Below are positions 4,053 to 63,939 of a DNA stretch of 64,000 nucleotides, piece after piece. Position 1 is the first letter of the stretch. Each line of letters starts with the position of its first letter. The notes beneath the pieces were generated by a model. That model ran no database searches, was not told the origin of the DNA, and worked only from the letters and a program-made list of their open reading frames with translations. The translations under genes and the position numbers were made by a program. This DNA comes from Pseudomonadota bacterium (GTDB taxonomy: Bacteria; Desulfobacterota; Binatia; Binatales; Binataceae), in contig JAJPIG010000018.1 in the NCBI GenBank assembly GCA_021324855.1, forward strand, positions 124,001 through 188,000, given 5' to 3'.

Positions 4053-4082
4053 TGATCTGAAATCTTTTACTGGGGCAGCGCG

Positions 4083-11968: not shown

Positions 11969-11983
11969 CAGGCAGCCGCGGAA

Positions 11984-12298
11984 TCAGGCGCCGTGCGCGA
12001 TGCGGCCGACATGTTCACGCACCACCTCGGGCGGGCACAGCCACAAGAAGATCTTGAGCGTGACGTAACCGACCAGCAGCCAATCCAGTTCGCCGATGAA
12101 CGGGATGAAGTCGAGCTCCACCGCGGGCGGGGTGAGCAACAGAAGCACGCCGAGCACCGGCACGAGCTTGGCCATCACCGGGACTCGTGCGTCGGTCATA
12201 AGCCGATAGAAGAGCCGCACGAAATGTGGGAAAAACAGGATGAACCCGCGTAGTTTGAGCGGATTCAGCATCTGCATCCTTAGCAATCGACCAAACAT
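11984..12298 (-). CDS. DUF1232 (YkvA-like) small membrane protein
   Basis: A 104-residue protein with the DUF1232 core: YRLMTDARVPVMAKL followed by a hydrophobic segment and the LDFIPFIGELDWLLVG motif, which corresponds to the family's usual IDLIPDFIPFIGELDD pattern. Two membrane segments are likely. The ATG at 12298 gives the normal family length; longer starts only add shadow sequence. The function is unknown. It ends 16 nt before the UPF0182 start, so the pair probably forms an operon. Confidence 0.75.
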   Translation of the reverse strand: MFGRLLRMQMLNPLKLRGFILFFPHFVRLFYRLMTDARVPVMAKLVPVLGVLLLLTPPAVELDFIPFIGELDWLLVGYVTLKIFLWLCPPEVVREHVGRIAHGA

Positions 12299-12395
12299 AG
12301 CGCCATCGAAATTGTATACCCATCGATCCGGAAAATCCAAAGCCGGTCGCCGCCGAATCGAATCTGCTACAATGAGAGTTGACAGAGGTGTCGCG

Positions 12396-14102
12396 TTGAA
12401 AAGGCACATGACGCTCGGCGACTTTCTTGTCGCGTATCTGCGCAAAATCGGCTGCACGCACATTTTCGGCATTCCCGGCGACCTGGCGCTCAAATTGTTT
12501 TTCGCGCTCAGCCGTCGCCATGCGTTCGAGGTCGTGACCTTCTCGCACGAGCCCGGGGTCGGCTTTGCGGCCGATGGCTATGCGCGCGCCACCGGTCGTA
12601 TTGGTGTGGTCTGCGTCACCTACGGCGCCGGCGGTCACAATATGGTGAACCCGGTCGCCGGTTCCTTTTCGGAACGCGTGCCAATCCTGATTCTCTCAGG
12701 TGGGCCGGGCGACGAGGAACGCAAGCTCGGCACGCTGATCCATCACCAGGCGCGCGAAATCGAATCGCAGCATCGGATCTACGAAGAGGTCACTTGCGCA
12801 TCGCGCGTGCTCACCGATCCGCATACCGCGGCGCGCGGCCTGCACGACGTGGTGCGCGCGATCTGGGCCGAGCAGCGTCCCGGCTATATCGAAATTCATC
12901 GCGACATGGTTGATCGCGAGATCGAGGTGCCTGACGAGCTGATCGAATGGGACGGACGGCTCGCGTTCCATGAATCGGACTCGCGTAAGGTCGAAGAGGC
13001 AGCGCGCGAAACCGCCGCGATGTTCAACGCGAGCAAGCGCCCGGTGGTGATCGTTGGGATTGAGATCCATCGCTACAAGGCGGCGCACGAGGTCATCCAG
13101 CTTGCCGAGCGGATGGGCGCGCCGGTGCTGGCGACGGTGCTCGGCAAGGGCGCCTTCCCGATGCATCATCCGCTCTACATGGGCGTGCATATCGGTCCAC
13201 TCAGCCCGCCGCCGATCGTTGCCAGGATGGATGAGGCCGATCTCGTCCTGAACATCGGCTGCCTCAAGACCGACATGAATTTCGGCAACCGGCCCCCGGC
13301 GATCATCCAGGACAAGACGGTGTGGGCGGTCGATCGCCGGGTCGACATCAAGTACCACACTTACACTGATGTCGGCGTACGTGATTTCGTGCGCGCGCTG
13401 TTGCGCCAGGACCTGCGGCGGCATCGTGAGACTGTCCACTATGCTGACAATCTTCCGCCCGCGGCACCCGTTAACGGACGGGGGACGGCGGCGCTGCGAG
13501 TCACCGAACTCCTGCGCGCGGTAAACGAGTTCCTCGACGCGAATCGCCGCTACATAGTGGTTGCGGAGTCGGGTGATATGCTTTTTGCGGGGCTCGACCT
13601 GCGCGTGCCGCGGGCCTCCGGCTATTTCGCGCAGGGCTTTTACGCCTCGATGGGATTTGGCGTGCCGGCCGCGATGGGGGCACAGATCGGGATGGGAATT
13701 CGGCCGCTGGTTCTGTGCGGCGACGGCGCTTTTCAGATGACCGGGCCGGAGATCTCTCATGCCCCCGCGCTCGGGCTGAATCCGATCGTGATCGTGGTCA
13801 ACAACGGCGGCTGGGGAATCTTCCGGCCCATCGCAGAGCGGCACGACTTGCTCGAGGTTCCCTCATGGCCGTACGCGCGGCTGGCTGAGGACTGGGGCGG
13901 GCGAGGTTTCGAGGTGCACACCGCGGCCGAGCTGAAGGCGGCGCTCGCCGAGGCCCATGAATCGCCGGGCTTCGCGATCATTGATGCGCGCATCGAGCGC
14001 GAGGATCTCTCGCCGATGAGCGTCAAGTACATCAAGGCGGCTGCCCGCCGGTCGCAGCCGCCGACAACCGAACGGCGCAATCCGCACGGCGCCGTCCGAT
14101 AG
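12396..14102 (+). CDS. Thiamine diphosphate-dependent 2-oxo acid decarboxylase (acetolactate synthase-like fold)
   Basis: A three-domain ThDP enzyme of about 568 residues. The N-terminal PYR domain has the FGIPGD start and the conserved Glu in SHEPGVGFAADGYAR that activates the cofactor. The C-terminal PP domain carries the ThDP/Mg motif, GDGAF followed about 25 residues later by NNGGWG. The GIPGDLALKLF sequence places it closer to phenylpyruvate/indolepyruvate-type decarboxylases than to true acetolactate synthase; the substrate is inferred only. The TTG at 12396 has AGAGGTG six nt upstream; ATG at 12372 or 12408 are alternatives. An acyl-CoA ligase gene follows after 9 nt. Confidence 0.85.
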   Translation: MKRHMTLGDFLVAYLRKIGCTHIFGIPGDLALKLFFALSRRHAFEVVTFSHEPGVGFAADGYARATGRIGVVCVTYGAGGHNMVNPVAGSFSERVPILILSGGPGDEERKLGTLIHHQAREIESQHRIYEEVTCASRVLTDPHTAARGLHDVVRAIWAEQRPGYIEIHRDMVDREIEVPDELIEWDGRLAFHESDSRKVEEAARETAAMFNASKRPVVIVGIEIHRYKAAHEVIQLAERMGAPVLATVLGKGAFPMHHPLYMGVHIGPLSPPPIVARMDEADLVLNIGCLKTDMNFGNRPPAIIQDKTVWAVDRRVDIKYHTYTDVGVRDFVRALLRQDLRRHRETVHYADNLPPAAPVNGRGTAALRVTELLRAVNEFLDANRRYIVVAESGDMLFAGLDLRVPRASGYFAQGFYASMGFGVPAAMGAQIGMGIRPLVLCGDGAFQMTGPEISHAPALGLNPIVIVVNNGGWGIFRPIAERHDLLEVPSWPYARLAEDWGGRGFEVHTAAELKAALAEAHESPGFAIIDARIEREDLSPMSVKYIKAAARRSQPPTTERRNPHGAVR

Positions 14103-50905: not shown

Positions 50906-51475
50906 TCAGAATCCGATTGCCAGCCAGTAAAAACCGTAGACGTAGGTGCTCGACTGGCCGACCGGAATATTATTGAGTTCGATGCTCGCGTTTGCGGCCG
51001 TGAACTGAACGATCTCGGGCACCCATTCGTTTAGATCGGGCGCGGTTTTCGACGGATTGCGTGCCGGCGTCGCATTCGCCCAGAGGCAAAGGTTTGGAAA
51101 CGGGACAGGCCAGGTAAGCGTGATTTCAGTGTCACCGCCACCGATGTTCGCATTATATTGGTAGAAGCCCCACTGTATGACGGCAATGACCGAGCCGCGG
51201 TTTATGTCCGCGATCGGAATCTCGAGATAGCCGTTGGTCTGCAGCGATCCGGTGAACTTCCCCATGAACGCCAGCAGCGCGCCGATGTTGGTGATGTTGG
51301 TGTCCTGACGCTGCTTCAGAAACGCGGTGCGATTGGCGAGCTGCTGATGCGGCTGATTGGAGAGTCCGATGCCGCCGAAGCTTGCGCCGGCCGCAGCGCC
51401 CTCGACCGCGTCAGTCGCCTGAATCTCGTAAACCTCGTCGGCCGTGAAAGCGGGAGCATCAATCAAGGTTGCCAT
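50906..51475 (-). CDS. Prophage tail fibre-like protein
   Basis: A 189-residue phage protein, the most promoter-distal of the tail genes. The segment SNQPHQQLANRTAFLKQRQDTNI is the recurrent motif of short tail-fibre proteins that comes after an N-terminal attachment part. The C-terminal half is beta-rich with aromatic residues (QWGFYQYNANIGGG, SSTYVYGFYWLAIGF). It may bind the host surface. At 189 residues it is short for a fibre, and no fibre-assembly chaperone follows, so binding specificity might depend on other proteins. The Met at 51475 is the natural start; a longer frame overlaps the next gene. Confidence 0.7.
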   Translation of the reverse strand: MATLIDAPAFTADEVYEIQATDAVEGAAAGASFGGIGLSNQPHQQLANRTAFLKQRQDTNITNIGALLAFMGKFTGSLQTNGYLEIPIADINRGSVIAVIQWGFYQYNANIGGGDTEITLTWPVPFPNLCLWANATPARNPSKTAPDLNEWVPEIVQFTAANASIELNNIPVGQSSTYVYGFYWLAIGF

Positions 51476-51504
51476 CGATTTTACTCCGGGCGGCGTATGA
51501 GCCG

Positions 51505-52023
51505 TCAGAAGGTGAGTGTCCAGGTGCCCGACAAGCTCATCCCGGCGCCGAAGGTGATCGGCGCGATCGTCTTGCGCGCGAGCAGGATGGTCGGTGAGTT
51601 GGCGCCCGGCAGCGTGACGCCGGTCGGATTCGCGAACAGCCCGAGCTCCTGGATTACGAGCCCCATCGCACCGCTGTCCGATCCGGTGAGGCTCCAGTTG
51701 AACTGCACGCTGCCCGGGCCCGGCGTCGTGCCGTTCTCGGCGTGGCTGTCGAGCGCCTTGTAATAGGCCGGCGCGGTGAGTCCCGAATCGTTGACCGTCG
51801 GCGCGGTCGATCCCGATCCGAAGCCGACTGCTGAGGCATACTGCCCCGCGGTATCTCCGCCCAACAGCGAGGCAAGCGCGGGCAGGCCCGCATTGACGAA
51901 CAGGTTGCGTCCGTCGATTTCCGCGACGATCCTGTTTTCGCATCGCACGCAAATTTTGACCATCCCCGACGGGCGCGGGATTGCGCAGGCCGCCATTTCG
52001 AGGCTCGGCCGGATTCGTTTCAT
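51505..52023 (-). CDS. Prophage tail-associated hypothetical protein
   Basis: A 172-residue protein in the tail cluster, between gpI and the fibre-like gene. I do not recognise a named family. It contains GLVIQELGLFANPTGVTLPGANSPTILLARKTIAPITFG, a pattern often seen in uncharacterised tail-end phage proteins with the phrase ELGLFA and a C-terminal beta strand. It could belong to the fibre or its network. The start (MKRIRPSLEM) is 1 nt from the stop of gpI, so it is in the same operon. Confidence 0.6.
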   Translation of the reverse strand: MKRIRPSLEMAACAIPRPSGMVKICVRCENRIVAEIDGRNLFVNAGLPALASLLGGDTAGQYASAVGFGSGSTAPTVNDSGLTAPAYYKALDSHAENGTTPGPGSVQFNWSLTGSDSGAMGLVIQELGLFANPTGVTLPGANSPTILLARKTIAPITFGAGMSLSGTWTLTF

Positions 52024-52024
52024 T

Positions 52025-52882
52025 TCATCCTCCTTGAAGGACCGCAGCGCCGCCGATGGTCAGCGCCGAGTCCGCCACGTTCGGCTCATTCGCGCCGTAC
52101 GTGATGCCACTATGTCGAAAGTGAGCGTTGTAAAGCGGAGCCGCGGGCCCATACTGATCGACAAGCGGGGCCGGCGCGAAATGCAGTGCGAAGCTGTCGA
52201 CGGCCGACGGTGCGGTGTCAAGTTCGATTTGCGCGATGCCACCGGCGTTGAGTTGAACGACCGGAACCGGCGCGTCGTCGAGCAGCGGCGGAACGATAAA
52301 CCATACTGAATCGAGCCAGGCACGCGCCGGCTTGAAGAAATCGACTGCCGCGGCGATCAGGTTCGCGTCGCCGGAGTCGGCCGACTGGTTCGCTTCAAGC
52401 GCGATCAGCACGCGGAAAACCGCCCATCCCTGACTCGCCGGATACGCAGTCCCGCCCCAGCTATTCTGGCCTTCGAGTAACGTCACATCGGTCCATCCGA
52501 GCTGCGCGAGCGCGCGTTTGATCGCCGCGGGGGTGCCGCGTACGCGATGCAGCGCGATGGCGTTCTCGATCATCGTGCGCTGGACGGTTGAAGAAGGCGC
52601 GCCCGCGAGCGGTGTGCCGATCAGGTCGATCGAGGTCAGGGCGTCGATGTTGGTGATCGAATCGATATCGAGCGCGCCCGAGCTGAACGCTCCCAGCAAT
52701 TGCCAGAAAGGCGACAGGATATCGAACTGCCAGGCGAGAAAAGGCAATGCCGAGTCGGGCACGGACGCGATGCGGTAGACGAGGAGCGGCGTAAGGTCGA
52801 GCGCACCGAGCCGCTCGATCAGCACCAGCATCGCCTGGCTGCGCGCGTCGTTGATCGAAGGCTGGATCGTGAGTTGCGCCAT
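52025..52882 (-). CDS. Phage tail protein I (P2 gpI-type)
   Basis: A 285-residue baseplate protein. The N-terminal part RIASVPDSALPFLAWQFDI and the central VQRTMIENAIALHRVRGTPAAIKRALAQLGW are recognisable P2 gpI features. The C-terminal part, after about residue 200, is longer than in P2 and probably binds tail fibres. It follows gpJ by 5 nt and is in turn followed by the two distal genes. gpI and gpJ form the wedge that joins the baseplate to fibres. Confidence 0.88.
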   Translation of the reverse strand: MAQLTIQPSINDARSQAMLVLIERLGALDLTPLLVYRIASVPDSALPFLAWQFDILSPFWQLLGAFSSGALDIDSITNIDALTSIDLIGTPLAGAPSSTVQRTMIENAIALHRVRGTPAAIKRALAQLGWTDVTLLEGQNSWGGTAYPASQGWAVFRVLIALEANQSADSGDANLIAAAVDFFKPARAWLDSVWFIVPPLLDDAPVPVVQLNAGGIAQIELDTAPSAVDSFALHFAPAPLVDQYGPAAPLYNAHFRHSGITYGANEPNVADSALTIGGAAVLQGG

Positions 52883-52887
52883 CGCGG

Positions 52888-54084
52888 TCAGCTACCCTCG
52901 CTTGCCGTCGCCTGGCTGAGTGAGATCGCGGTGCAGTTGGCCCATTGCCCCGGCGCGGCGGAAATAGCGAGCACTCCCTGCCCGGCGACTGGCGACGTGA
53001 TCGCGACTTCGTACACACCTGACACCGACAGTGCGCTGATGATCTGGCTGGCGACGATATCGCGCCCGATGCGATTTGCCTGGTTCACCGCGAACTGGGC
53101 CGCCGCGGCGTTGGCGGCGGCCATCGTCGCCACCGGGTCAGCGTCGGCATAGAGCGTCACGGTCGCCGCGATTTGGTAATCGATCTCGATCGCGGGATAA
53201 ACGTTGACGGTATCGGTCAGCGGCCGCACATCGTCGGCGCTCAGGATCGATTGCACCGCATTGAGGATGGCGGTGCTCGGGATGCCGACCGAATTCGGCG
53301 CGGCGGCCGGCTGCACGGTGATCGGTCCGGTCAGCACATAGACATTCACGGTGCCCGGCGCCGGACTCACGATCTGAACATCGATAATCGAGGGATCCGC
53401 GCCGAACGCAAACGAGCGATAGGCTGCCGAGGGTCCGGCGACGGAGAACTGGTTGGGCGCAGCCTGGATGCGGGCGCGATAATGATCATCCGTTTCCGGC
53501 GCCGAGCCGCCGGCGCTGACTGTGGTGTTCGCGACGCTGGAAATCTGCGCGCTCGGCGACAGCATCACATTGATCTGTCCGGGCAGATAGCCGTTGCCCG
53601 CCGGTCCTGGGGTGGTTGCAGTCGCGTTGACTGTGCCCTGCGTTTGCCCGGCCGCGATCACCAGCTCAGCATCGGTCGCGAATACCAGTTGACCGTCTGT
53701 GGTGCCGACGGTGGTTCCTGCCGGAATCGAATAAGACACGTTGAGCGGATTGATCAGCGTGAACTGGAGGATGGTTGAAGCCGGCACGGCGCCGAGCCGC
53801 GTTACGCTGAGCAGTGCGCCCAGATAATCGAGCATCGGAAAGCTCGCGAAGGCGAGCAGGTTCTGCTGCCCCGCGTACTGGATCGCGTCGCGCACCAGCG
53901 ACTCGCGGTAGGCGTAAAGATTAATCAACAGCCGTTCGACCTGCGCCGGCTGAAGCACCCGCCCCGAAGCGCTTTCGAACTCGGCGATCATGTCGGCCAG
54001 GATCAGCTTCGGATCGAGTCCGTCGGCATCGTTGACGAACGTCGGCGGCGGAAGGCTGGTGATGCTCGCGGCCATCTGGTTCAC
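52888..54084 (-). CDS. Baseplate J/gp47 family protein
   Basis: A 398-residue wedge protein of the contractile baseplate. The N-terminal part carries LINLYAYRESLVRDAIQYAGQQNLLAFASFPMLDYLG, typical of gpJ, and the central ETDDHYRARIQAAPNQFSVAGPSAAYR matches the family. The C-terminal part holds repeated strand-like units. It is between gp25 and gpI, the usual order. Length is longer than P2 gpJ (302) but close to Mu gp47-type proteins. Confidence 0.93.
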   Translation of the reverse strand: MNQMAASITSLPPPTFVNDADGLDPKLILADMIAEFESASGRVLQPAQVERLLINLYAYRESLVRDAIQYAGQQNLLAFASFPMLDYLGALLSVTRLGAVPASTILQFTLINPLNVSYSIPAGTTVGTTDGQLVFATDAELVIAAGQTQGTVNATATTPGPAGNGYLPGQINVMLSPSAQISSVANTTVSAGGSAPETDDHYRARIQAAPNQFSVAGPSAAYRSFAFGADPSIIDVQIVSPAPGTVNVYVLTGPITVQPAAAPNSVGIPSTAILNAVQSILSADDVRPLTDTVNVYPAIEIDYQIAATVTLYADADPVATMAAANAAAAQFAVNQANRIGRDIVASQIISALSVSGVYEVAITSPVAGQGVLAISAAPGQWANCTAISLSQATASEGS

Positions 54085-54108
54085 CTCAGGGATTAAGCAG
54101 TTCGAGGT

Positions 54109-54522
54109 TCATTGCGCGCTCGTTGGTGGAATTGTCACGACCGTCGTCTGCGAAGGCGCCGGCGCCGAGCCGAGCTTGAGCCGCCATACGATCGTAACCA
54201 TCAGACGTCCGATCGTGGTCGGGTCGGGAGCGGCGTTCACCGTAATCAAAATGATGCGCGGCTCCCACAGGGTGATCGCCTCGGTTATTTCGCGAACGAT
54301 GGCGGGAATCGCGGCGTCGATCGGATAGTCGATGTACTGCCAGAGGTCGGCGCCGAAGGTCGGACGCAAGGGGTCGGAACCTTTGGGCGTGGTCAGGATG
54401 ATGCGCACGCATTGCGCGACGTCGTCGAGACCCTCAACGATCTCGCCAATCGCGCCGAGCTTCATCGACCAGTCGACCGAAGTTATTTCGCCAATCGAAA
54501 CCGTCATCTTGGTTTCCGGCAA
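54109..54522 (-). CDS. Baseplate protein, GPW/gp25 family
   Basis: A 137-residue small baseplate wedge protein with lysozyme-like gp25 fold. LRPTFGADLWQYIDYPIDAAIPAIVREITEAITLWEPRI is the characteristic core. It starts 2 nt before the gpV stop region and is followed by gpJ; the order gpV, gp25, gpJ is strictly conserved in contractile-tailed phages and related injection systems. Confidence 0.92.
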   Translation of the reverse strand: MPETKMTVSIGEITSVDWSMKLGAIGEIVEGLDDVAQCVRIILTTPKGSDPLRPTFGADLWQYIDYPIDAAIPAIVREITEAITLWEPRIILITVNAAPDPTTIGRLMVTIVWRLKLGSAPAPSQTTVVTIPPTSAQ

Positions 54523-54524
54523 AT

Positions 54525-54995
54525 TCAGGTTTGCGCGACCGTTGAGCTGGTCGGCAACGGCGGCACAATCGAAACGCCGCCTGGAGTGATACTTACCTTG
54601 GATGCGCCCGATTCGAGTTCGATTCCGGCCGGCGCATTAACCGTCGCCGATGCGCCGGCGCAAAGTGAAATCGTCAGCGCATGAGCGGCGCGATCGTACT
54701 CCATAACCGTTCCGTCTTTGAAGGTCAGATGAAATTTGTCCGCGCTCTGCACCGGCGGCTGATCGACGGTTGAATAAATCGCGCCCAGGACCGCGCCTGC
54801 CTCGTCGAACTCGTCCATCACGCAGACGACCTGCTCGCCGACATCGGGCATCCAGAAAATTTTGTCGGCCAGCGTCTTGGGCATGATTATCTGGAGCCAG
54901 TACGAGGTAAGATGATCGCGATCCGGGAAGCGCACCCGTACGCGCGCGTTGGTAAGATCCTGCTCAGTGACTATTCCGACGCGATACATAGTCAA
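54525..54995 (-). CDS. Baseplate assembly protein V (gpV, central spike)
   Basis: A 156-residue spike protein. The N-terminal MYRVGIVTEQDLTNARVRVRFPDRD and MPDVGEQVVCVMDEFDEAGAVLGAIYS are the OB-fold of gpV/gp45 spikes. The C-terminal half (residues about 100-156) is beta-helical with Ala/Gly/Val repeats, which would form the triple-stranded needle. No obvious iron-binding HxH at the tip is visible. It follows gpD and precedes gp25, as expected. Confidence 0.92.
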   Translation of the reverse strand: MTMYRVGIVTEQDLTNARVRVRFPDRDHLTSYWLQIIMPKTLADKIFWMPDVGEQVVCVMDEFDEAGAVLGAIYSTVDQPPVQSADKFHLTFKDGTVMEYDRAAHALTISLCAGASATVNAPAGIELESGASKVSITPGGVSIVPPLPTSSTVAQT

Positions 54996-55006
54996 TTCGC
55001 CAACAA

Positions 55007-56023
55007 CTATCCAATAATCGTAGAGACTCGACGCGCATCGATGCTGGTGGAATAGCCGGTGCGGCGATGCAGCGAGTGCCGGGAAACCTCAATCAGGTAA
55101 AGACCATCGAACGAACCCCATCCGAAAAGTTCAAGGGTGTTTCCCGCCGCAAGCGCGGTCATGCCCGGCAGGGTGATTTGTGATGAGGTGAACCACGAGT
55201 TGGCCTCCTGCAGCGCGGCCTGCGCCTTCAGCGTCGCCTGCTGCGCATTTTCGCACCGGGTGATGAGCTTGCGGGTGTCGCCGGTCGGGATGCCGGCAGC
55301 GTCGATCGTCTGCGTAATCAAGCTGCGCGTCGCCGCATCCTGGTACGCGACCTGCGCGGCTTTGTAGATCCTGCGCGTACGATTCTCGAAGCTGAAGCGC
55401 TCGACGTCGCCGCGCGTCAGAGTGATTACTGGCGTTTGTGTTTCGAGCGCGGCCCGTGAATAAAAGACCAAAGCCGAACCGCGCACGGTGAATTCGTAGC
55501 CATGCGCCGTGGCAAGGCGCTTCAGGAACTCGAGGTCGCTTTCGTGGTTCTGAGTGATGCGTGCGAACATGGGATTGAGCGAATCGGCAACGCCGATGAC
55601 CGCGAGTCCGTACTTGGCGGCAACCGTGGTCGCGATCTGGAGCAGCGTCTGGTTTTCGTACGCGACGCTGTTCCGCGTGCGCATCGCGGGCGTGATGTAC
55701 GCCGACAGGCACCGCATCCGAAAGACGTCCGGCGGCCCCTGGAGTTCAAGTTGATCGATTTCGAAATCCCCGCACGGCAGCATCGGTTCGCCGGCGTAGC
55801 CGATGAGCAGATTGAGCTGGTCGCCAATCGACGGATACCACGGACCCTGCCACAGATGATCGCGATCCTCGAGTTCGACCTCGATTTCGCCGGCGCGGCC
55901 GCCGAGGAAGTCGCGATAGACGATCGACGTCACCATCGAGGAGATGTCGCCCGTGATGTCGGTCCCCGCATAGCTCAACAGCCAGTGCGGCGATCGCACC
56001 TGATGCCCCAATGCGGCGCTCAT
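55007..56023 (-). CDS. Phage late control/tail protein D (gpD, hub)
   Basis: A 338-residue baseplate hub protein of the P2 gpD/Mu gpP type that joins the tube to the spike. The segments YRDFLGGRAGEIEVELEDRDHLW, LNLLIGYAGEPMLPCGDFEIDQLELQGPPD and TAHGYEFTVRGSALVFYSR are family hallmarks. It is between tail protein X and gpV, in the expected order. Confidence 0.92.
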   Translation of the reverse strand: MSAALGHQVRSPHWLLSYAGTDITGDISSMVTSIVYRDFLGGRAGEIEVELEDRDHLWQGPWYPSIGDQLNLLIGYAGEPMLPCGDFEIDQLELQGPPDVFRMRCLSAYITPAMRTRNSVAYENQTLLQIATTVAAKYGLAVIGVADSLNPMFARITQNHESDLEFLKRLATAHGYEFTVRGSALVFYSRAALETQTPVITLTRGDVERFSFENRTRRIYKAAQVAYQDAATRSLITQTIDAAGIPTGDTRKLITRCENAQQATLKAQAALQEANSWFTSSQITLPGMTALAAGNTLELFGWGSFDGLYLIEVSRHSLHRRTGYSTSIDARRVSTIIG

Positions 56024-56075
56024 CCGACGATTGCTCCGGGCGTGATGCCGCGGTTATTTCCGCGCCCGACGGTTT

Positions 56076-56303
56076 TCACGCGCTGCGTTTCCACGGCGGA
56101 AGGTTGGTCGTCATCACTACGCTCTTCTGAAGGATCGGCACGATCAGCACGATGCCCGCTTCGAACACCGGCTCGACCGCAACCGACGGATTCGCAAACA
56201 CCAGCCTGCTGTAGAGGGTCGGATCGCCGTAGTAGTTCCATGCGACAGTGTCCCAACGTTCGCCAGCGACGGTCACATGCTCGAGGTATTGCGTCTGCGC
56301 CAT
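56076..56303 (-). CDS. Tail protein X (LysM-type)
   Basis: A 75-residue small tail protein of the P2 gpX/Mu-like group. It shows the LysM-like core EHVTVAGERWDTVAWNYYGDPTLYSRLVFANPS and GIVLIVPIL. Such proteins act at the tail-hub junction. Located 16 nt after gpU and 52 nt before gpD, which are its usual neighbours. Confidence 0.88.
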   Translation of the reverse strand: MAQTQYLEHVTVAGERWDTVAWNYYGDPTLYSRLVFANPSVAVEPVFEAGIVLIVPILQKSVVMTTNLPPWKRSA

Positions 56304-56319
56304 GCTCCTTTTGCCCGCC

Positions 56320-56922
56320 TTATGCGCCTGCGCTACGCACGATTTGCGATGGGGGTATGTCGTCCGGCGTCAACTGGACGCCGGGAGCACCCGCCGACAT
56401 TGCGTTGTTGAGCACCGCGGAAAGACCCGCGAGCAGTGGTGATGCAGCCGCTGACGATGCGCCGCTTGCGGCTTGCGGAGCCGGCGAGGCGATAACAGCG
56501 AGTGGCGTGAACAGTGGAACCGGCGCGGCATTGGGATCGAGCGCGCCTGCCGGCGTCCATTCGGTGAGTCCGAGCCGCGCCTGGATCGCGATCGGGGTGC
56601 CGTCGGCGCCGAGCTGCCGCGCAGTGACGGCGAGCGACGTGATCACGAAGTAGCCGCGAAACTCACCGCTGCCGAACACTAGCGCGCGTGCCTGATGATC
56701 CGCGGCGGCCGCCTCGAACTCCGCGAGTTGCACAATGGGATTGGTGAACGATGCGTGGAGCATCATTTCGAGCGTGATGCTTTCCAGCGGATCGCCGACC
56801 CATTGCAACAGCGGCTGAGCCTCGACCACGCGATGAACCGCGTAATCGTACCGGCGCGTCGATTCCATCCGTTCCGGCGAGCCCAGAACCTGAAACACGA
56901 TAGTGCCGAAAACTGCGAACAT
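56320..56922 (-). CDS. Phage tail protein U (tail terminator-like)
   Basis: A 200-residue protein matching the P2 gpU family. The first 130 residues hold FGTIVFQVLGSPERMESTRRYDYAVHRVVEAQPLLQWVGD and LGLTEWTP, the conserved family features; these proteins cap or terminate the sheath and tube. The last 60 residues are Ala/Ser/Pro-rich and probably flexible, longer than in P2. It is between the tape-measure-like gene and gpX. Confidence 0.9.
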   Translation of the reverse strand: MFAVFGTIVFQVLGSPERMESTRRYDYAVHRVVEAQPLLQWVGDPLESITLEMMLHASFTNPIVQLAEFEAAAADHQARALVFGSGEFRGYFVITSLAVTARQLGADGTPIAIQARLGLTEWTPAGALDPNAAPVPLFTPLAVIASPAPQAASGASSAAASPLLAGLSAVLNNAMSAGAPGVQLTPDDIPPSQIVRSAGA

Positions 56923-56940
56923 GATGGCTCCGGCCGCTCG

Positions 56941-58074
56941 CTAGAACTCGGTTCGGCGGCGGCGTGCGGCTTCGCGCCGCCATTGATCGTAAAGCTCGCC
57001 CGCATGATGCCGCAGCGCTTCAAGCACGCCGGCCTCGAAATCGCCGGCGCTGTTCGCCTCGTGAATCACGATGGTCGGCGACGAGTTGATCACCAACCCT
57101 GCGCTCCGGTCGCCCGCAATTCCGAAAGCAGCGACCCCCAGGCCGTCGCTGCGAATCGGAAGGGCCGCCGCCGGAGGCGTCCAAACCGCTGCCATTCGAG
57201 TCGACGCACCAAAACCTCTATCAGATGGAGCCGGCCGGCCGTTGATACGAGCGCCCGTCATCTGCATCGATGCGATCGAATTAAGCTTTCCGATGCGGGG
57301 CAACGCGATGTTCACATTCTCAAGCGACAGCGTTGCATGATCGCGAAGCGCTTCGAGGCGCACGCCCTCGCCAGCGGGATGCGATGCATCGACCGTTTGC
57401 GGCGTCGTACGCTTTCGTGGATGCGCACCCGGAAATCGGCTGGCTATCTCCGACGCTCTGACTATTCGTGCGACGCGACGAAGAGTTTCGTCGCCGGACG
57501 CAATCGTGGCGCGCCGTTCGCCGGTTGGCCTGCGTTCAACCCGTCGATCGTTGCCGATTGCGACTGCGGATCTGCGGGCGACAGTGCTTGTCGATCGCGG
57601 CCACGACGCAAGCTGCGCGACTCGGCGCGATGAATTCGATTTAACGAGGGCCGCACCGAAGCGGCTGAACCGCGGGCGTGGTTGTGGTTCGGAAGATCCG
57701 CTCGGATGGCTCAACCGATCGGCTTTCGACCGATCGGCGGCATTTCCGATAGGCTCTGGTGAGAACGGGAGCTTCCTTGTGGCGGCGCGGTTGACTGCGG
57801 CAAATGCACCGAGCCGCCTGTGGACCAGGGCAAGGATGCGTGGGTACGCGGCGGCATTGGCAGAGTTCTCCGGCAGCTTTTCGACGCTCGATGATAAGCG
57901 CGGCGGATTCGCAGCCGAGGTCCCGATGTTCCCGCCCATGCTGCTGAGCGCGGTCGCGGTGGTCAGCCGGGCGATCCGCGCCCGCTGAATTCCGATCGAG
58001 CGAATTCCCGCGGCCCATCGGGCGAGGCGGCGAAGCCCGCCCGCTCCATCCGCGATTTTTCCGTTCTGCTCCAT
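56941..58074 (-). CDS. Short tail tape-measure-like protein
   Basis: A 377-residue protein where the tape measure of contractile phages is expected (after the frameshifted chaperone, before gpU). The C-terminal segment SPTIVIHEANSAGDFEAGVLEALRHHAGELYDQW with a basic tail is like the end of tape-measure proteins. The rest is rich in Arg, Ala, Ser and Pro, without the long coiled-coil or transmembrane segments usual for the family (P2 gpT has 815 residues). It starts 3 nt after the RRM gene. It is either a very small tape measure or a degenerate, shortened one. Confidence 0.6.
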   Translation of the reverse strand: MEQNGKIADGAGGLRRLARWAAGIRSIGIQRARIARLTTATALSSMGGNIGTSAANPPRLSSSVEKLPENSANAAAYPRILALVHRRLGAFAAVNRAATRKLPFSPEPIGNAADRSKADRLSHPSGSSEPQPRPRFSRFGAALVKSNSSRRVAQLASWPRSTSTVARRSAVAIGNDRRVERRPTGERRATIASGDETLRRVARIVRASEIASRFPGAHPRKRTTPQTVDASHPAGEGVRLEALRDHATLSLENVNIALPRIGKLNSIASMQMTGARINGRPAPSDRGFGASTRMAAVWTPPAAALPIRSDGLGVAAFGIAGDRSAGLVINSSPTIVIHEANSAGDFEAGVLEALRHHAGELYDQWRREAARRRRTEF

Positions 58075-58077
58075 TCG

Positions 58078-58368
58078 TCAGCCGGCTCGCCTGGTGCGCG
58101 TCTGCGCCTGCGGCTTCGCAAGCTGCACCCGCAGCGTTCGGCCCATCACTTCGGTGCCGTCCAGGTCGGCGATCGCGCGCTGCGCCTCCTCGGCGGTTTG
58201 AACATCAACAAAACCGAAACCGCGCGAACGTCCGGTTTCGCGATCCCGAATGATCTCCGCGCGTTCGACATGCTCAGGGCTGACGCTGGTCAGACGCCCG
58301 ACCAGTTCGTGAAGCGCCGCATCCGTCATCGCGAAACTTAGATTGCCGATATAAAGTCGCGTACTCAT
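58078..58368 (-). CDS. RRM-domain RNA-binding protein inside the prophage tail operon
   Basis: A 96-residue single RRM (RNP-1 motif) protein. RNP2 is RLYIGNLSF at the N-terminus and RNP1 is RGFGFVDV; the ADLDGTEVMGRTLRVQLA end is typical. Such small RRM proteins in bacteria are usually chromosomal (cold- or stress-associated Rbp). Here the gene lies in line with the tail genes: 22 nt after the frameshift extension stop of the tail chaperone, and 3 nt before the tape-measure start. ATG 58368 is chosen over GTG 58377 because it begins the standard STRLYIGNLSF start. The C-terminus is short and basic (RTRRAG). Confidence 0.85.
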   Translation of the reverse strand: MSTRLYIGNLSFAMTDAALHELVGRLTSVSPEHVERAEIIRDRETGRSRGFGFVDVQTAEEAQRAIADLDGTEVMGRTLRVQLAKPQAQTRTRRAG

Positions 58369-58390
58369 TTCCACCACTGCGAATGGAGAT

Positions 58391-58557
58391 TCATTCGTTA
58401 CCCGTATGGGACTGCTCGCTCCCGCGCTGATACTCGGCGGCGGCGGCCGCCCAGAAAATCAGCTCCGGCAGCTCCATTGCGGCTAACTCCGAGAAGCCGA
58501 AGCCGAACCGGATGAGGCCGGCGATTGAGGCGGCGGCGGGAACGCCGCCTCGTGAAA
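58391..58557 (-). CDS. Frameshift extension (E'-type) of the tail assembly chaperone
   Basis: This -1 frame is open from the slippery site to TGA at 58391-58393 and gives a 54-residue C-terminal extension for the upstream chaperone. It contains SELAAMELPELIFWAAAAAEYQ, the pattern of P2 gpE'-like extensions. It has no own start codon in a suitable place; it is expressed by frameshifting, giving a fusion of about 152 residues (98 from the first frame and 54 from this one). The downstream RRM gene begins 22 nt after its stop. Confidence 0.8.
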
Positions 58558-58848
58558 ATTTCCGCCGATCACTTCCTCCTGGAGCACCAGCACGTCCGCG
58601 AGGTCCATCGCCAACACGTCCTCGTACACGATGCGCCGGCCGTCGATGGTCGCGAGCTCCGCGATGAGCGCGAAGATGATCGCCGCGGGCTCGCTGCTTT
58701 GCGCCGCGCGCTGCGCCCGCATCAGATCGCGCCCGATTCCGGCGCGGAGCTCCGCCTTGCGCCCGGAGGGCAGCGCGATCGTTCGTCCGCTCCTGGAGCC
58801 GTTCCCGGTCACCGCGACGCCATTCACCGTCAGAGCTTCATCAACCAT
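58483..58848 (-). CDS. Phage tail assembly chaperone (P2 gpE / Mu gp41 type)
   Basis: A 121-residue tail assembly chaperone; proteins of this group hold the tape measure during tail assembly. Its first part has VALTVNG-like strand pattern and RKAELRAGIGRDLMRAQRAAQ, and the centre DVLAMDLADVLVLQEEVIGGNF is typical. It ends in a Pro/Ser-rich tail in the zero frame. At codons 97-98 (AAT TTT) the ribosome can slip -1 and make the longer form. It lies between the tube gene and the RRM gene. Confidence 0.85.
   Translation of the reverse strand: MVDEALTVNGVAVTGNGSRSGRTIALPSGRKAELRAGIGRDLMRAQRAAQSSEPAAIIFALIAELATIDGRRIVYEDVLAMDLADVLVLQEEVIGGNFHEAAFPPPPQSPASSGSASASRS
58527..58561 (-). promoter_or_regulatory. 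-1 programmed ribosomal frameshift site: slippery heptamer plus hairpin
   Basis: On the minus strand, AAATTTT (58561-58555) has the X XXY YYZ arrangement in the chaperone frame (A AAT TTT). After CAC, a perfect 9-bp GC-rich hairpin follows: GAGGCGGCG (58551-58543), loop of 7 nt, CGCCGCCTC (58535-58527). The -1 frame is then open for 54 codons. Each of these elements is expected for E/E'-type tail chaperone frameshifting. Confidence 0.9.
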
Positions 58849-58865
58849 CGAAGGAACCTTCCGGT

Positions 58866-59384
58866 TTACTCACCGAGATTGGCGCGGAAAGCCGCGAGCT
58901 GGTCGACGCCGCCGACCACGTAGAGATTCGCCATCACGTCGTACAGAAAAATCTGCACACCCGAGACATAAAGCTCGGTGTGATAGACCGAGATCACCGA
59001 CTGCGCGTCGGTATTCTCCTGATGCTTGAAGCTGAGCGCGCCGGCATCCTTGAACACGCCCGTCATCAGGTAGACCAGCGACAGCTCGGCAGAGCGGCCC
59101 TGGCTGGTGTATTGCTCGATGCTGCCCATCACCTGGAACGAATGGCTCTGGAAGGGGCTGCTCGCGAGCACCTGCGCCTCGGGATAGATCGACGACCACC
59201 TGATGCGCGACTCGAGCTTGTCGACGCCGGCCCAGAACTCGGCGGCGCCGGCCATCCCCAGTCCCTTGTGATCGACCATGCGATGACGCGGCTGCGCCAC
59301 TTCGATCTCTTCGGCGCGGCCGAGCAGGCCGATGCCGTCGACGTAGATGTTCGCGTTCGTGATCCGATTGATTGATAAGTCCAT
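58866..59384 (-). CDS. Phage major tail tube protein (P2 FII-type)
   Basis: A 172-residue tube protein that forms the inner tail channel. It begins with INRITNANIYVDGIGLLGRAEEIEVAQ and includes HKGLGMAGAAEFWAGVDKLESRI, both typical of P2 FII-family tubes. It follows the sheath gene by 18 nt. The length is normal. With the sheath it defines this phage as contractile (myovirus-type). Confidence 0.93.
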   Translation of the reverse strand: MDLSINRITNANIYVDGIGLLGRAEEIEVAQPRHRMVDHKGLGMAGAAEFWAGVDKLESRIRWSSIYPEAQVLASSPFQSHSFQVMGSIEQYTSQGRSAELSLVYLMTGVFKDAGALSFKHQENTDAQSVISVYHTELYVSGVQIFLYDVMANLYVVGGVDQLAAFRANLGE

Positions 59385-59402
59385 CGCGCGCTCTCCTTAG
59401 CC

Positions 59403-60920
59403 TCAGAAGCCCGCGCCCGCTGCCGCGCTGAGGCCGGCGCCGAGCGGATTGCTCTGTCCGAGTTGCTGCAACAGGTTGGTGTCGATGGTGACGTTGAAGC
59501 TGATGCGTTCGGCGGGCGGCGGCGGCATCACGTCGATGTCGAAGACCAACTGTCCCGCCGCGACCTGAGTCGGCGGATTCTGCGCGGGATCGAAGGTGGC
59601 GCTGCCGCCCACCAACGCGCCGCGCTGAATCAGGCTGCGCAGGAAGGCGTTGACGCTCGCCAGGATCGCGGTAATCAGGGCGTTCGAGATCGGCTGATCG
59701 ATGAACTGGAGCATCGCGAGCTCGACCGAGTCCTCGATCACGTCCATCGTGCGGCGGATGCTGATGAAATTGTCGGGCGCGGTACTGGTCGGGAACGCCG
59801 CCGAGCGATTACCCCACACGCGTAGCCCCGTGCCGAAACTGTTAAACACCGTGACGATGCCTTCGGAGTTAAGCGTGTTAACGTCCGAGTTCGGGTCGAT
59901 AATCGACGCGTAGAGCGGTACATCGGGTCCGAGCGTGCCCTCGAACTGGGTGTTCGACGGCGACCACCAGTAACCCTGTGCGAGGTCTTTCGCGGCCATC
60001 GCGCCCGCGACGTATTGCGAGTAGGGCGCGACCGAATTGGCGTTGACCGGCGCGCCGGTCGTTGGGTCGATGCCGTTGTCGACGAAGATCTGCTGCGGGT
60101 AGCAGAGGATCGCGCGATTCGAGCTGGTATCGAAGGCCGCGCCGGCCGTGCCGCGATTCGCGATCGCGGTGGCGCTCGCGGTGCCCGGCGCGGAATCGAT
60201 CAGCGCCATCGCGCGCAGCGTTCCGGCCATCGTTGTGAGCGCGCTCGCAACATCGGAATTCTGCGAATAGCCCGGCGCGATCAAAATCTTGGCGAAGAAA
60301 CCCATGGTGCCGTACGTCGTTTTGAGCGCCTGCAAGCCGCTGTACGCGCCGTTCGTAAACGTGCCGATGATGTCGCTGTCAGCGACCTTGGTCGGGTCGG
60401 CATAGTCGAACGAAACCAGCACCGTCGCGCCCGCGCTGATGCGGCCGCCGGCGACCAGCGTGATAATCCCGTTGACGGCGTCGAGCGTGTAATCCGATCC
60501 CGCAGTGTAGGTGGTTCCGGCGGGGTCGCTGGTGACGACCACCTGCGATACGCCCATGTGGCCGAGGTCGATCTGTCCTGCATCCGCGCCGGTCGTCGGG
60601 AAGGTATAAGGCGTCGCAGCTACGGCGCTGACATGGACTGCGGGATTGAAGACGTTGACGACGATCACCTGGCCCGCGCCCTGGGCCTGGATCGCGGCGA
60701 GCGCATAGGGAATCGTGTAGCCCTTGATCAACGGGCCGAATTGCGCAGCGTCGACCGCCGAGCTCACCAGCACCGGGGTCTGGACCGCCGGCGGATTGCT
60801 TACGTCCCAGATGGGAGCGGTGCCGATCAGTCCGATGACGGCGGATTTCACGACCGTCACCGGGGTCGGCCCGCTCGTCACTTCCATCACCTCGACTCCG
60901 TGCAAAAAACTCGCTGCCAT
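59403..60920 (-). CDS. Phage tail sheath protein with inserted beta module
   Basis: A 505-residue sheath protein that contracts during injection. The N-terminal GVEVMEVTSGPTPVTVVKSAVIGLIGTAP and the C-terminal IRRTMDVIEDSVELAMLQFIDQPISNALITAILASVNAFLRSLIQ are clear sheath signatures (subtilisin-like fold type). An extra module of about 80 residues (about 99-178) separates the early strand NVFNPAVHV from GTFTNGAYSGLQALK; the same module occurs in the cement and gp37 proteins. The module probably sits on the outer surface. It precedes the tube gene. Confidence 0.93.
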   Translation of the reverse strand: MAASFLHGVEVMEVTSGPTPVTVVKSAVIGLIGTAPIWDVSNPPAVQTPVLVSSAVDAAQFGPLIKGYTIPYALAAIQAQGAGQVIVVNVFNPAVHVSAVAATPYTFPTTGADAGQIDLGHMGVSQVVVTSDPAGTTYTAGSDYTLDAVNGIITLVAGGRISAGATVLVSFDYADPTKVADSDIIGTFTNGAYSGLQALKTTYGTMGFFAKILIAPGYSQNSDVASALTTMAGTLRAMALIDSAPGTASATAIANRGTAGAAFDTSSNRAILCYPQQIFVDNGIDPTTGAPVNANSVAPYSQYVAGAMAAKDLAQGYWWSPSNTQFEGTLGPDVPLYASIIDPNSDVNTLNSEGIVTVFNSFGTGLRVWGNRSAAFPTSTAPDNFISIRRTMDVIEDSVELAMLQFIDQPISNALITAILASVNAFLRSLIQRGALVGGSATFDPAQNPPTQVAAGQLVFDIDVMPPPPAERISFNVTIDTNLLQQLGQSNPLGAGLSAAAGAGF

Positions 60921-60964
60921 TTATGTGACTCCTGTCTGATTGATGGAGTTGAGCGCAGGCGCTC

Positions 60965-61762
60965 CTAGCCGATAACCACAGAGGGGTCGTAGCCGCACGC
61001 GACCGTCACCGATGCTCCCGGAGCGAGCGCACCGCCGGGCTTCAAACTGAGAAGTCCGATTGCGGGATCGACTGAGTAGTCAATTCCGAGTATGTACAGG
61101 CGGCCGCTCGCATCGGTCACGCTGACATTCGTGATATTGCCGTAGGGCAACTGCAGGGTGCCCTGGGTGCTGAACGATTCCTGAAAAGCGCCGACCGCGG
61201 CAACCACGTCGCCGGCTGAATCCTGCGCAATTCCATTGACGAACAACGGAAAATCGACCGGCGGAGTGACCTCGATCGCGACCGTCTCGACGGCGAAGCC
61301 GATCGCGTAAATCCAGACGCCGCCCTGCGCGTCGCGCTCGACGAAACGCTCCTTGAGCGGGTACATCTTGCGGCATCCGGGAATCTGAAACCCGGTCAGC
61401 GCCGCGCGGATCGCTTCGAGGAGCGCGTACGCGCCCGGACTGACGCCGCTCGCGCTCCCGCCGTAAGCCCAGCCGAGGTCGCGCGTTATCACGCGCACCT
61501 CGAACTCGAGGGTGCGCGCCTGCGCGACCACTGCGCTGTCGATCAACCCGCCGTAGCTCGACCCGCGATACGAAACCAGCGCCGCGCCGATTCGATGCGT
61601 CAGGCGATAGGCTTCTGGACGATCGGGGAAATGAACTATCTCAATCGCGTTGATCGAGGTTTGCAGTTGAGCGACGATCGCGGATTCGATCGTCGCGATA
61701 TCAAGCGGCGTCGGCGGAGTAAAGGTCTGACCCGTCCAGGGGGTATCGAGAACTACAGCCAT
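60965..61762 (-). CDS. Mu gp37-like protein with C-terminal beta module
   Basis: A 265-residue protein matching Mu gp37 family members in its first 165 residues (DIATIESAIVAQLQTSINAIEIVHFPDRP and LEFEVRVITRDLG...GAYALLEAIRAALTGFQIPGCRKMYPLKERFVE). These are late head-tail connection proteins. The C-terminal part (about 201-262) is the extra beta module shared with the sheath and the cement protein; normal gp37 proteins are shorter. It lies between gp36 and the sheath. Confidence 0.85.
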   Translation of the reverse strand: MAVVLDTPWTGQTFTPPTPLDIATIESAIVAQLQTSINAIEIVHFPDRPEAYRLTHRIGAALVSYRGSSYGGLIDSAVVAQARTLEFEVRVITRDLGWAYGGSASGVSPGAYALLEAIRAALTGFQIPGCRKMYPLKERFVERDAQGGVWIYAIGFAVETVAIEVTPPVDFPLFVNGIAQDSAGDVVAAVGAFQESFSTQGTLQLPYGNITNVSVTDASGRLYILGIDYSVDPAIGLLSLKPGGALAPGASVTVACGYDPSVVIG

Positions 61763-61807
61763 CGATTAGTCACTCAGTCGTCTTCTGACTAGTCAGTCAG
61801 AATGGGT

Positions 61808-62242
61808 TCAAAAGCCTTTCAGCCGGTTGCGATCGAAGACCCGTTGCGGCCCTTCGATCGCCATTGCTTCAGGGGCGGTGGGCGGCTCCTCGCTGTCCGG
61901 CGACAGTCCGAGCGTGACGGCGCCCTTGGCCGCCTCGAGCAGGAATGCAATCGCGTCCTCGTAGCGTTTGCGCGCATCGGCGAGGTCGTGCAGCGGACGC
62001 AGGGATTGCAAGCGATACATCGCGATGTCGCAGGCGAGCCGGTTGAGAACCGCCGGCGGATCGGTCAGCGGCAGCGCGAAGCGGCCTTCCAGGTAACCGT
62101 CGATCTCGGCCGCGGCGTCGTCGAGCGCCTGCTGCAGCGGCGCAATGTTTACCGTGGTTGCGGTCGGATCCTCGTTGGTGAGCTGGACGAGATCGCGGTT
62201 GGGGTAACGGGCGATCATATCGTCGGGAGTCGCGTATCCCAT
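61808..62242 (-). CDS. Mu gp36-like (DUF1320) head-completion protein
   Basis: A 144-residue protein of the DUF1320/gp36 family. It begins GYATPDDMIARYPNRDLVQLTNED and contains LQQALDDAAAEIDGYLEGRFALPL and CDIAMYRLQSLRPLHDL, which are the standard motifs; it acts as a head-tail connector in Mu-like phages. It is between the major capsid and gp37, the typical Mu order. Confidence 0.93.
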   Translation of the reverse strand: MGYATPDDMIARYPNRDLVQLTNEDPTATTVNIAPLQQALDDAAAEIDGYLEGRFALPLTDPPAVLNRLACDIAMYRLQSLRPLHDLADARKRYEDAIAFLLEAAKGAVTLGLSPDSEEPPTAPEAMAIEGPQRVFDRNRLKGF

Positions 62243-62261
62243 GGTGGTGTCGGCCGGCCGC

Positions 62262-63212
62262 CTAGGCGAGGTACTCGCTGACGATCAGGTCTGCGCTGTT
62301 GCGCCAGATGTTGCTGGTCGGCACGCCCGCGCTCGCGCCGGCGCCGACCATGAATTCCGAATTGAGCAGTTGCCGCGCGACCTCTTCGAGCGCGGGCGGC
62401 ACCACGAGGTACACGCCGTTGCGGCTCGACAATGCGCCGAAGGGTGCGCCGCCGTCGGTCTTGATCGAGCGCATCGCGGCGCGCGCCGCGCCGTAGTTGG
62501 CGGGATTGCTCAGGTCCTGGTTGCTGGCGTAGGCAAGCTGCCAGAGCCCGACGCCGGTATTGGCGCGGCCGTCGACGCCGTAACGGAACTCGCGCCGGTT
62601 GAAGACGCCCTCATCGCTGAGCGTGTTCATCCTGGTGATCGCGTATTCGCGGCGCAGTTGAAAGATGAACGGCCGAATCGCCCGCGAGGCATCGATCAAA
62701 AACCAGTAAGGTCCGCTGCCGCTCGAGTTGATGTTCGACACGGTCGTGTCGCGCGTCGCATCGCCCATCGGGCCGACCGGATGAGTGGTCGAAAAAAACG
62801 GCTGACCGTCGTAGCCGATTACCGCCGACGGCGTCGAGACCGCCTGCTTGATCATCTGGAACAGCAGCATGTCGGGATGAACCTTGGTGTCCCATCCGAG
62901 CTGCTCGATAATCGGCTCGTAGACGCCGTAGTTGTCGTCCTCGATGTCGTTGCGATCGATTGCGACGGTGTCCTCGAAATTGCGATTGACGATCGTGTAG
63001 GTGTGCGTCTCGAGCGCCTGCACCACGCGATCGCCGAGCCATTCGCGAAACGTGGTGGTCCGCCCCAGCCACGGATAGGTCGTTTGCCGGCTCGTGGAGC
63101 GCACGATGGTCGCGATCTGCTCGTAGTAGCTCGGCGGTTTTTCGAAGCCGCGCTGAAAGACGACGTCGAAGCCGGTGAAGAGTGAAACCAGGTTCGCCTG
63201 CGTGATTTCCAT
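62262..63212 (-). CDS. Mu gpT-type major capsid protein
   Basis: A 316-residue major head protein of the Mu gpT family. It shows the N-terminal ITQANLVSLFTGFDVVFQRGFE, the FEDTVAIDRNDIEDDNYGVY segment and the central GQPFFSTTHPVG, all typical. The C-terminal VVPPALEEVARQLLNSEFM is also expected. It rules out a headless tailocin: the cluster encodes capsid as well as tail. Preceded by the cement protein gene. Confidence 0.93.
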   Translation of the reverse strand: MEITQANLVSLFTGFDVVFQRGFEKPPSYYEQIATIVRSTSRQTTYPWLGRTTTFREWLGDRVVQALETHTYTIVNRNFEDTVAIDRNDIEDDNYGVYEPIIEQLGWDTKVHPDMLLFQMIKQAVSTPSAVIGYDGQPFFSTTHPVGPMGDATRDTTVSNINSSGSGPYWFLIDASRAIRPFIFQLRREYAITRMNTLSDEGVFNRREFRYGVDGRANTGVGLWQLAYASNQDLSNPANYGAARAAMRSIKTDGGAPFGALSSRNGVYLVVPPALEEVARQLLNSEFMVGAGASAGVPTSNIWRNSADLIVSEYLA

Positions 63213-63243
63213 AAGTTAGCCTCTGATCGAATTGAAGAGATGG

Positions 63244-63939
63244 TCAGACGGAGAGCGGCGACTGATGCCAGAAATCGATCCATACCTCGCCGCTTGGATC
63301 GAGATTGACTATGCGGCCGGCGACGCTGCGGGTTGGAGCGCCCCAGTTATAGGAGATCAGCACCGAGGCGCCCACGGCAAAGCTGCTCGACGGCGTGCGA
63401 ATCACCAAACCGGCCTGGTAATCAACGACGTAGTCTGTGCCTTCAACGTAGGTGGTGCCGGCCGGTGAACTGGTGACGACGACCTTGGAGACCGATTCAT
63501 GGCCGAGCACGACGATCTGCGGCGCGCCCGACGCGGGAAAGGTGAACGCCGCCGCGGTAACGACCGCCGCGCCGCTGCCATCGCTTGCCGAGACGGAATT
63601 GTCATCGACGGCGAACGCGAGCGCGCCGGCCTGCGCCTGCGCGATCGAGTTGTCGTTGTCGGCGTACATGAAAACGCCGCGCCGGCAGACGACGGAGATC
63701 GCGCCGGCGGCGCCGCCGGTATTATCGGCGTTCTGACCGGGGATGCCGTTATGGACGCGTTCGGCGCGGCCGACGATGCGCAGCCCGGGCGTCGAATTCG
63801 CCGGAATCGCATTGCCGTTCGCATTCAGCGCGACCATTGAGCCGAGGTACACGATCGTGTTCGCCTCGACCGGATAGACCTGGACCCGGCCGAAGTCAGC
63901 CATCTCCGGGGTGTTGCGAGCGCTGGTCAAAGCCGCCAT
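63244..63939 (-). CDS. Capsid cement/decoration protein with inserted beta module
   Basis: A 231-residue protein that looks like a DUF2190-type capsid cement or decoration protein: AGALAFAVDDNSVSASDGSG at residues 105-122 and VAGRIVNLDPSGEVWIDFWH at the C-terminus frame the DUF2190-like fold. Between them, residues about 128-202 form the beta module also found in sheath and gp37. It appears inserted in a loop, so it would project from the capsid. GGAG precedes the ATG. It lies directly upstream of the major capsid gene. Confidence 0.75.
   Translation of the reverse strand: MAALTSARNTPEMADFGRVQVYPVEANTIVYLGSMVALNANGNAIPANSTPGLRIVGRAERVHNGIPGQNADNTGGAAGAISVVCRRGVFMYADNDNSIAQAQAGALAFAVDDNSVSASDGSGAAVVTAAAFTFPASGAPQIVVLGHESVSKVVVTSSPAGTTYVEGTDYVVDYQAGLVIRTPSSSFAVGASVLISYNWGAPTRSVAGRIVNLDPSGEVWIDFWHQSPLSV

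Follow-up and report, generated by a model that had tools for sequence, protein, structure and literature searches.

The window analysed here, a stretch of 64,000 nucleotides on contig C34 of a 3.75-Mb Binataceae genome (G000), carries a set of phage tail genes on its minus strand, and an RRM protein gene lies among them. Read along this strand, the tail sheath gene (59403..60920; Phage_sheath_1 and _1C; phrog_23, E 1e-100) is followed by the tail tube gene (58866..59384; Phage_tube, E 4.7e-34) and by the gene of the tail assembly chaperone, whose 0-frame product (E, 58483..58848) matched phrog_21320, a family of unknown function, at E 4e-23 and Phage_TAC_7 at E 0.0014, the latter with 19.1 bits and hence under the curated cut-off of 25. 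A slip heptamer, A AAT TTT (58555..58561), leads by a -1 shift into the E' extension (58391..58561, with its TGA at 58391-58393); the heptamer recurs in relatives with and without the RRM and the -1 frame is kept open in relatives, which supports the view of the initial annotation that the chaperone is frameshifted. A leader of 22 nt (58369..58390) separates the E' stop from the ATG of the RRM gene (58078..58368), and 3 nt separate the RRM stop from the ATG of the tape measure gene (56941..58074). The next conserved gene past the RRM and the tape measure encodes a gpU-like tail protein (56320..56922; Phage_P2_GpU, E 9.8e-26). The putative tape measure is a short, Arg-rich protein of 377 amino acids with no strongly hydrophobic segment (maximal 19-residue hydropathy 1.27). 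It matched no family among Pfam-type profiles and PHROGs, and its single-sequence AlphaFold2 model was uninformative (pLDDT 40.6); we assign it as a tape measure because of its place and because its C-terminal motif resembles that of the 621-915 amino acid tape measures of phages outside this group.

RRM proteins are best known from animals and plants. The product of the gene at 58078..58368 is 96 amino acids long when read from its ATG, or 99 amino acids from an alternative GTG start (58078-58377), and it matched PF00076 (RRM_1) at E 1.4e-16, with 60.5 bits against a cut-off of 20.7 and over model positions 1-70 of 70. Its AlphaFold2 model had the beta-alpha-beta-beta-alpha-beta order of the RRM fold at a mean pLDDT of 84.7, and the closest solved structure found by Foldseek was 7jly (TM 0.75 by query length, 40% identity). 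Both RNP2 (RLYIGNLSF) and RNP1 (RGFGFVDV) are present, and in an alignment of 24 proteins the two motifs are almost invariant. Thus, the profile match and the predicted fold agree with the earlier claim of a genuine single RRM with both motifs, and the coordinates likewise agree with the claimed position on the tail strand, at distances of 22 nt from the E' stop and 3 nt from the tape measure start. As had also been proposed, the gene stands in line with the late genes, and no promoter of its own could be recognised: a search with a sigma-70 pattern only found no promoter between 56900 and 59500, and the one terminator-like site in that interval (58992-58974), a number under the mean of 2.3 in shuffled sequences, falls within the tube gene. 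The tail RRM therefore shows no recognisable promoter or terminator of the kind that marks a moron.

These tail genes form part of a roughly 28-kb element that runs from window position 50906 to approximately 79.3 kb, past the window end (to approximately 203.3 kb of G000:C34). Its genes include Portal_Mu, a Mu-like_Pro protease, Mu-like_gpT, Mu Gp36, a Mor-type activator, a GH108 lysin and an S24 repressor, and it thus has the Mu-type head genes of a Mu-like prophage; the gpT-like major head subunit (62262..63212, minus strand; E 1e-98) is 80-90% identical to that of six other genomes. A Mu transposase domain (PF09299, Mu-transpos_C) was not matched anywhere in the G000, G022, G012 and G020 genomes, and G001 and G005 gave one match each, on contigs other than that of the element. 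In G000 and G022, a species pair of one genus, the element shares a flank of about 17 kb with PcrA/UvrD, DUF6178, a Rieske oxygenase and other genes, while G001 and G005, a species pair of another genus, share a flank that differs from it, and no locus was common to different genera among those compared. Since flanks are shared within genera and differ between them, the element appears to have kept its site by descent inside a genus, with moves or rearrangements from one genus to another. Among the element genes of L166 we also observed extra genes (at 11188-13210 and 1790-6178) for a patatin-like phospholipase, a methyltransferase and kelch-like or propeller-like proteins, the last recognised by eye. 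Its genes give the element the look of a domesticated particle and make it a candidate gene transfer agent of Binatota. With gene transfer agents, as far as they are described in the available part of PMC9662315, it would share an apparent vertical inheritance within genera, the presence of its tube in 28 of 41 genomes of the order, and, in one genome (G034), tail genes split over two contigs, a split that would suit a domesticated element; it differs from them in being known as a set of genes. The same part of that paper does not mention an RRM gene in a structural operon.

The initial annotation had set a recurrent tail component against a one-off insertion, to be told apart by searching related elements for an RRM gene at this site. 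The search was positive: the RRM is present in 58 of 77 complete tube-to-gpU junctions of the window's tube type and absent from 19, the 77 being distinct sequences, some of them nearly identical, counted irrespective of kinship. The one-off insertion thus fails and the RRM counts as a part of the tail system, which is nonetheless able to do without it, as the 19 junctions lacking it indicate. All 28 tube-bearing genomes of the order fall in one family; 19 of them have the junction RRM, seven do not (G021, G027, G028, G031, G033, G034 and G035), and in two (G004 and G038) the contigs end too soon. In a phylum-wide sample the tube was matched in 10 of 297 genomes, six from the same family and four more distant (E 3e-33 to 9e-8), and it was absent from six listed genomes of the same class belonging to other families. 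Where a source is named for related tail loci, it is Candidatus Binataceae or a MAG, these MAGs being mostly deposited under Deltaproteobacteria. Where the tube match was low-scoring, an RRM occurred in 2 of 29 junctions, and both of these (L222 and L255) are Binataceae-type tubes cut by contig ends. The spacing is tight throughout, with -4 to 79 nt from the E' stop to the RRM start in 47 of 48 loci (286 nt in the remaining one) and -8 to 42 nt from the RRM stop to the tape measure start. The IMG/VR contig 3300005524_000237 (L006) is 99.99% identical to window positions 50906-63369 over 12,464 nt; it comes from the same population as the window and is no independent case. In L021, probably a contig of G038, a 123-amino acid ORF stands between tube and chaperone.

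To place the tail RRM among the RRM proteins of its hosts we built a tree of 94 columns and 76 rows, a size at which columns are few and several branches long. In this tree 49 tail RRMs and 26 host RRMs lay on the two sides of one branch with support of 100/96, and one further row on the tail side came from a second, divergent tail locus of G020, in which a cut RRM again directly follows the chaperone. The tree excludes fragments under 80 amino acids (L101, L108, L114 and L164), three sequences missed by the motif used for picking (L122, L126 and L127), and 5 of the 32 rows of the host set, which are the tail copies themselves. Also left out were 23 of the 80 IMG/VR RRM loci kept from 101, which matched none of eight window tail proteins and whose RRMs read by eye as ordinary Rbp-type proteins. 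Distances between RRMs correlated with distances between tubes (Mantel r 0.923, reached in 0 of 2000 permutations, n=49), and the median dN/dS was 0.082 for the RRM versus 0.045 for the tube (140 of 1176 pairs, dS 0.05 to 1). Among 15 listed pairs the RRM values ranged from 0.03 to 0.49, three lying at 0.37-0.49, and in a clade without a tape measure in the junction they were 0.07-0.16 over 13 pairs; in six loci of that junction type tube, chaperone, RRM and gpU are all under purifying selection. On the tube tree the RRM label changed 15 times versus 30.4 in shuffles (14 of 93 rows carrying no assignment), and these changes would fit an old gain with repeated losses, gains and losses not being separable.

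These comparisons also bear on the view that the gene was recently captured from the host, as a one-off acquisition of an Rbp gene in the manner of a moron. The third-position GC of the RRM, 0.69 against 0.85 for the tube, would speak for it, but the 58 positive junctions, the split from the host RRMs, the correlation with the tube and the low median dN/dS refute it, and we give it practically no chance. RRM genes besides the tail copy occur in 41 of 41 genomes of the order, and the window genome has five RRM genes in all. Two host RRM genes of this genome lie side by side in divergent orientation (G000:C35:8798-9550; L003 and L005), and adjacent host pairs are also found in G022, G033, G021, G018 and G037. 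In L101 the place of the tail RRM is taken by a host-type RRM, of which 51 amino acids precede the contig end and which is 57% identical to host RRMs over 47 amino acids, possibly a second recruitment. As far as sequence relationships can tell, the tail RRM goes back to one deep origin and has belonged to the tail operon for a long time, under selection.

Having found the RRM next to both a frameshift gene and a tape measure, we asked which neighbour it is tied to. In ten RRM-bearing junctions the RRM stands directly before gpU at a distance of 15-77 nt with no tape measure between, and in the three operons mapped among them the other tail genes are open. A search with a C-terminal profile located the tape measure of G039 and G040 directly before the terminase gene, with hydropathies of 1.03 in G040 and 0.92 in G039, where it is cut by the contig end, and the RRM stays before gpU in both. 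In L304, the contig that carries L133, the chaperone and tape measure genes are placed between the major capsid protein gene and gp36, leaving the RRM as the only gene between tube and gpU; a small membrane-protein ORF lies antisense at 1807-2064 (minus strand) between the displaced chaperone and tape measure of this locus. G034 has no RRM; its chaperone and tape measure genes are found between gpJ and gpI, on a contig other than that of the tube. The order there is gpV, gpW, gpJ, chaperone, tape measure and gpI on contig C7 (L299), and sheath, tube, a 104-amino acid unknown, gpU and gpD on contig C11 (L186). The displaced tape measure genes are at 7490-8413 of L296, 5577-6686 of L297, 2118-3362 of L304 and 7167-9185 of L299. 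That the RRM had replaced the tape measure was considered and rejected, a tape measure having been found elsewhere in G039 and G040 and a tape-measure-like gene in L304. On the contigs of L092, L132 and L274, examined whole, there was neither a tape measure nor a portal or terminase gene, so that these contigs do not speak for loss. No tape measure was found on the contigs of L117, L124, L125 and L273 in a profile search that had no positive control and whose C-terminal profile also missed the tape-measure-like gene of L304. Thus, gene order is variable, and the RRM remains within the stretch from tube to gpU; because it stays where tape measure or chaperone have moved, we conclude that it is tied to this stretch and that its adjacency to the frameshift gene and to the tape measure is probably incidental.

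The tape measures themselves differ with the presence of the RRM. Those adjoining an RRM are 257-475 amino acids long and reach a 19-residue hydropathy of at least 1.6 in 1 of 52 cases, as against 11 of 14 in RRM-less Binataceae (347-498 amino acids, rows chosen by hand) and 22 of 22 in phages outside the family, counts that ignore kinship and exclude L046 and L188, where the wrong ORF had been picked. The tape measures of G027 and G034, read separately, reached 2.24 and 1.92. In L304, however, an RRM is present and the tape measure reaches 1.75, so that the link between RRM and tape measure type may be a matter of module history. The tape measure of TP901-1 sets tail length, and 30-residue deletions at either of its ends leave no tails, as stated in the available part of PMC5099701. 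One reading of these data is a structural or assembly role, in which the RRM fold, whether or not it binds RNA, would have been co-opted as a tail part or assembly factor that acts between the tube and the tail terminator. The persistence of the RRM between tube and gpU where other genes have moved away, the way its divergence tracks that of the tube, and the short, weakly hydrophobic tape measures beside it all point in this direction; on the other hand, a purely structural job would not need the conserved RNP1 and RNP2, the tail genes remain in the junctions without an RRM, and L304 weakens the link to the tape measure. We consider such a role possible but unlikely. A further reading would make RNA a part of the particle, with the RRM coating an RNA that fills or measures the tail, or one that is delivered by the particle. 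It was suggested by the adjoining tape measures being short, Arg-rich and almost always without strongly hydrophobic segments, and by the RRM taking the place of the tape measure between chaperone and gpU in two genomes, and we hold it to be very improbable.

The junction between chaperone and tape measure could also serve as an accessory slot, with the RRM as cargo acting on RNAs of the host or of rivals. In 10 of 21 RRM-less junctions of chaperone and tape measure we noted, by eye, small membrane-protein ORFs in antisense orientation (among them L009, L088, L094, L079 and L023, with three related copies in a row in L094), and the host-type RRM of L101 sits in this same slot. Against such cargo stand the common strand, the tight spacing and the lack of a detected promoter; moreover, one deep origin and co-inheritance with the tube are unlike cargo that is swapped, and all 41 genomes possess other RRM genes. 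In our judgement the cargo reading is rather improbable.

The initial annotation had suggested that the RRM might control the ratio of the programmed -1 frameshift of the chaperone, and in most loci the RRM does directly follow the frameshift gene. The heptamer reads AAATTTC in the largest clade. However, 18 of 21 RRM-less loci retain both the heptamer and the E' frame, the RRM-bearing loci L273 and L274 have an altered heptamer, and in L304 the chaperone sits away from the RRM. Given that the slip site and E' survive in loci lacking the RRM and that the chaperone can be located elsewhere, we regard frameshift control as highly unlikely.

At the level of sequence, the comparisons establish for the tail RRM a conserved place, a deep origin, co-inheritance with the tube, purifying selection and the retention of its RNA-contact motifs. 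The explanation we tentatively favour, though we would put it at somewhat less than an even chance, is that the tail RRM, inherited vertically as a dedicated part of the tail operon, regulates tail mRNA, perhaps autogenously. According to this proposal, the Binataceae element, resident and with a Mu-type head and a P2-type tail, would have the RRM as its tail-operon component; the protein, made from late mRNA, would bind this mRNA at single-stranded sites close to its ribosome-binding regions, for one clade possibly at a UGACUA box in its own leader. By feedback it would adjust the translation or stability of tail-gene mRNA and so keep the expression of the element's particle genes at the right dose. 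The candidate site is a TGACTAT box in the RRM leader of the largest clade, where the leader is 55-66 nt long in most sequences. Across the 28 sequences of this clade the box has column identities of at least 0.8, the 36 four-fold sites of the gene averaging 0.56. Upstream of the RRM ribosome-binding site the clade has a second stretch, which is ACTAA-like, and in part of the clade TGACTAA stands just upstream of the chaperone start. No such box was found at the RRM start in 23 of 25 loci of other clades, and the 22-nt leader of the window is among those without it. In the chaperone leader the box occurs in 14 of 57 junctions with an RRM versus 1 of 18 without. Codon conservation at the start of the RRM gene was not raised (2235 of 5000 permutations were as high). 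Two broader ideas were discarded: an operon-wide code of TGACTA boxes, which in the three loci mapped are non-coding only in the chaperone and RRM leaders and otherwise coding, and a stem-loop in the RRM leader, possible in some sequences and, by eye, not kept across the aligned leaders. The UGACUA box is thus a lead for a binding site and no more.

Control of phage mRNA translation by phage proteins is known from T4 RegA and Mu Com. The tail RRM would resemble these only in the proposed way of working, for they have folds other than the RRM and their genes are not known to lie in the tail operon. RRM proteins of bacteria include the cyanobacterial Rbp1-3 and an A. baumannii RRM protein, and, in the available parts of PMC9333190 and PMC9313427, Rbp1 is described as a single RRM and Rbp2 as lacking the C-terminal region. 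The tail RRM is akin to these Rbp proteins, so far as those sources describe them, in being an RRM protein of bacteria, and differs from host Rbp genes in that the tail RRMs form a group apart and sit in a tail operon. The P2-type tails of Mu-like prophages of Photorhabdus, Brenneria and Geobacter have the same order of tube, chaperone, tape measure and gpU. In such relatives, compared by their tail genes, none of the 27 other junctions with low-scoring tubes, from other bacteria and phages, had an RRM, and the 22 tape measures measured, at 621-915 amino acids, have hydrophobic segments.

RRM proteins hardly occur in described phages: at E 0.01 the tail RRM matched 3 of 50,697 phage records, of 220-274 kb, and no PHROGs family. 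In the literature searched, mostly without subscription papers, we did not find an RRM described together with a phage tail, a tape measure or a prophage, and Binatota and phage were mentioned together only incidentally in the parts of the texts available. What is new here is that an RRM gene resides in a Mu/P2-type tail operon, an arrangement of which we found no description. With an RRM retained in the tail operon by a large part of this soil-bacterial family, two ideas can be tested directly, namely that a domesticated phage particle is under post-transcriptional control, or that such a particle contains RNA. Moreover, the RRM-bearing tail operon points to a resident particle element in this uncultured lineage.
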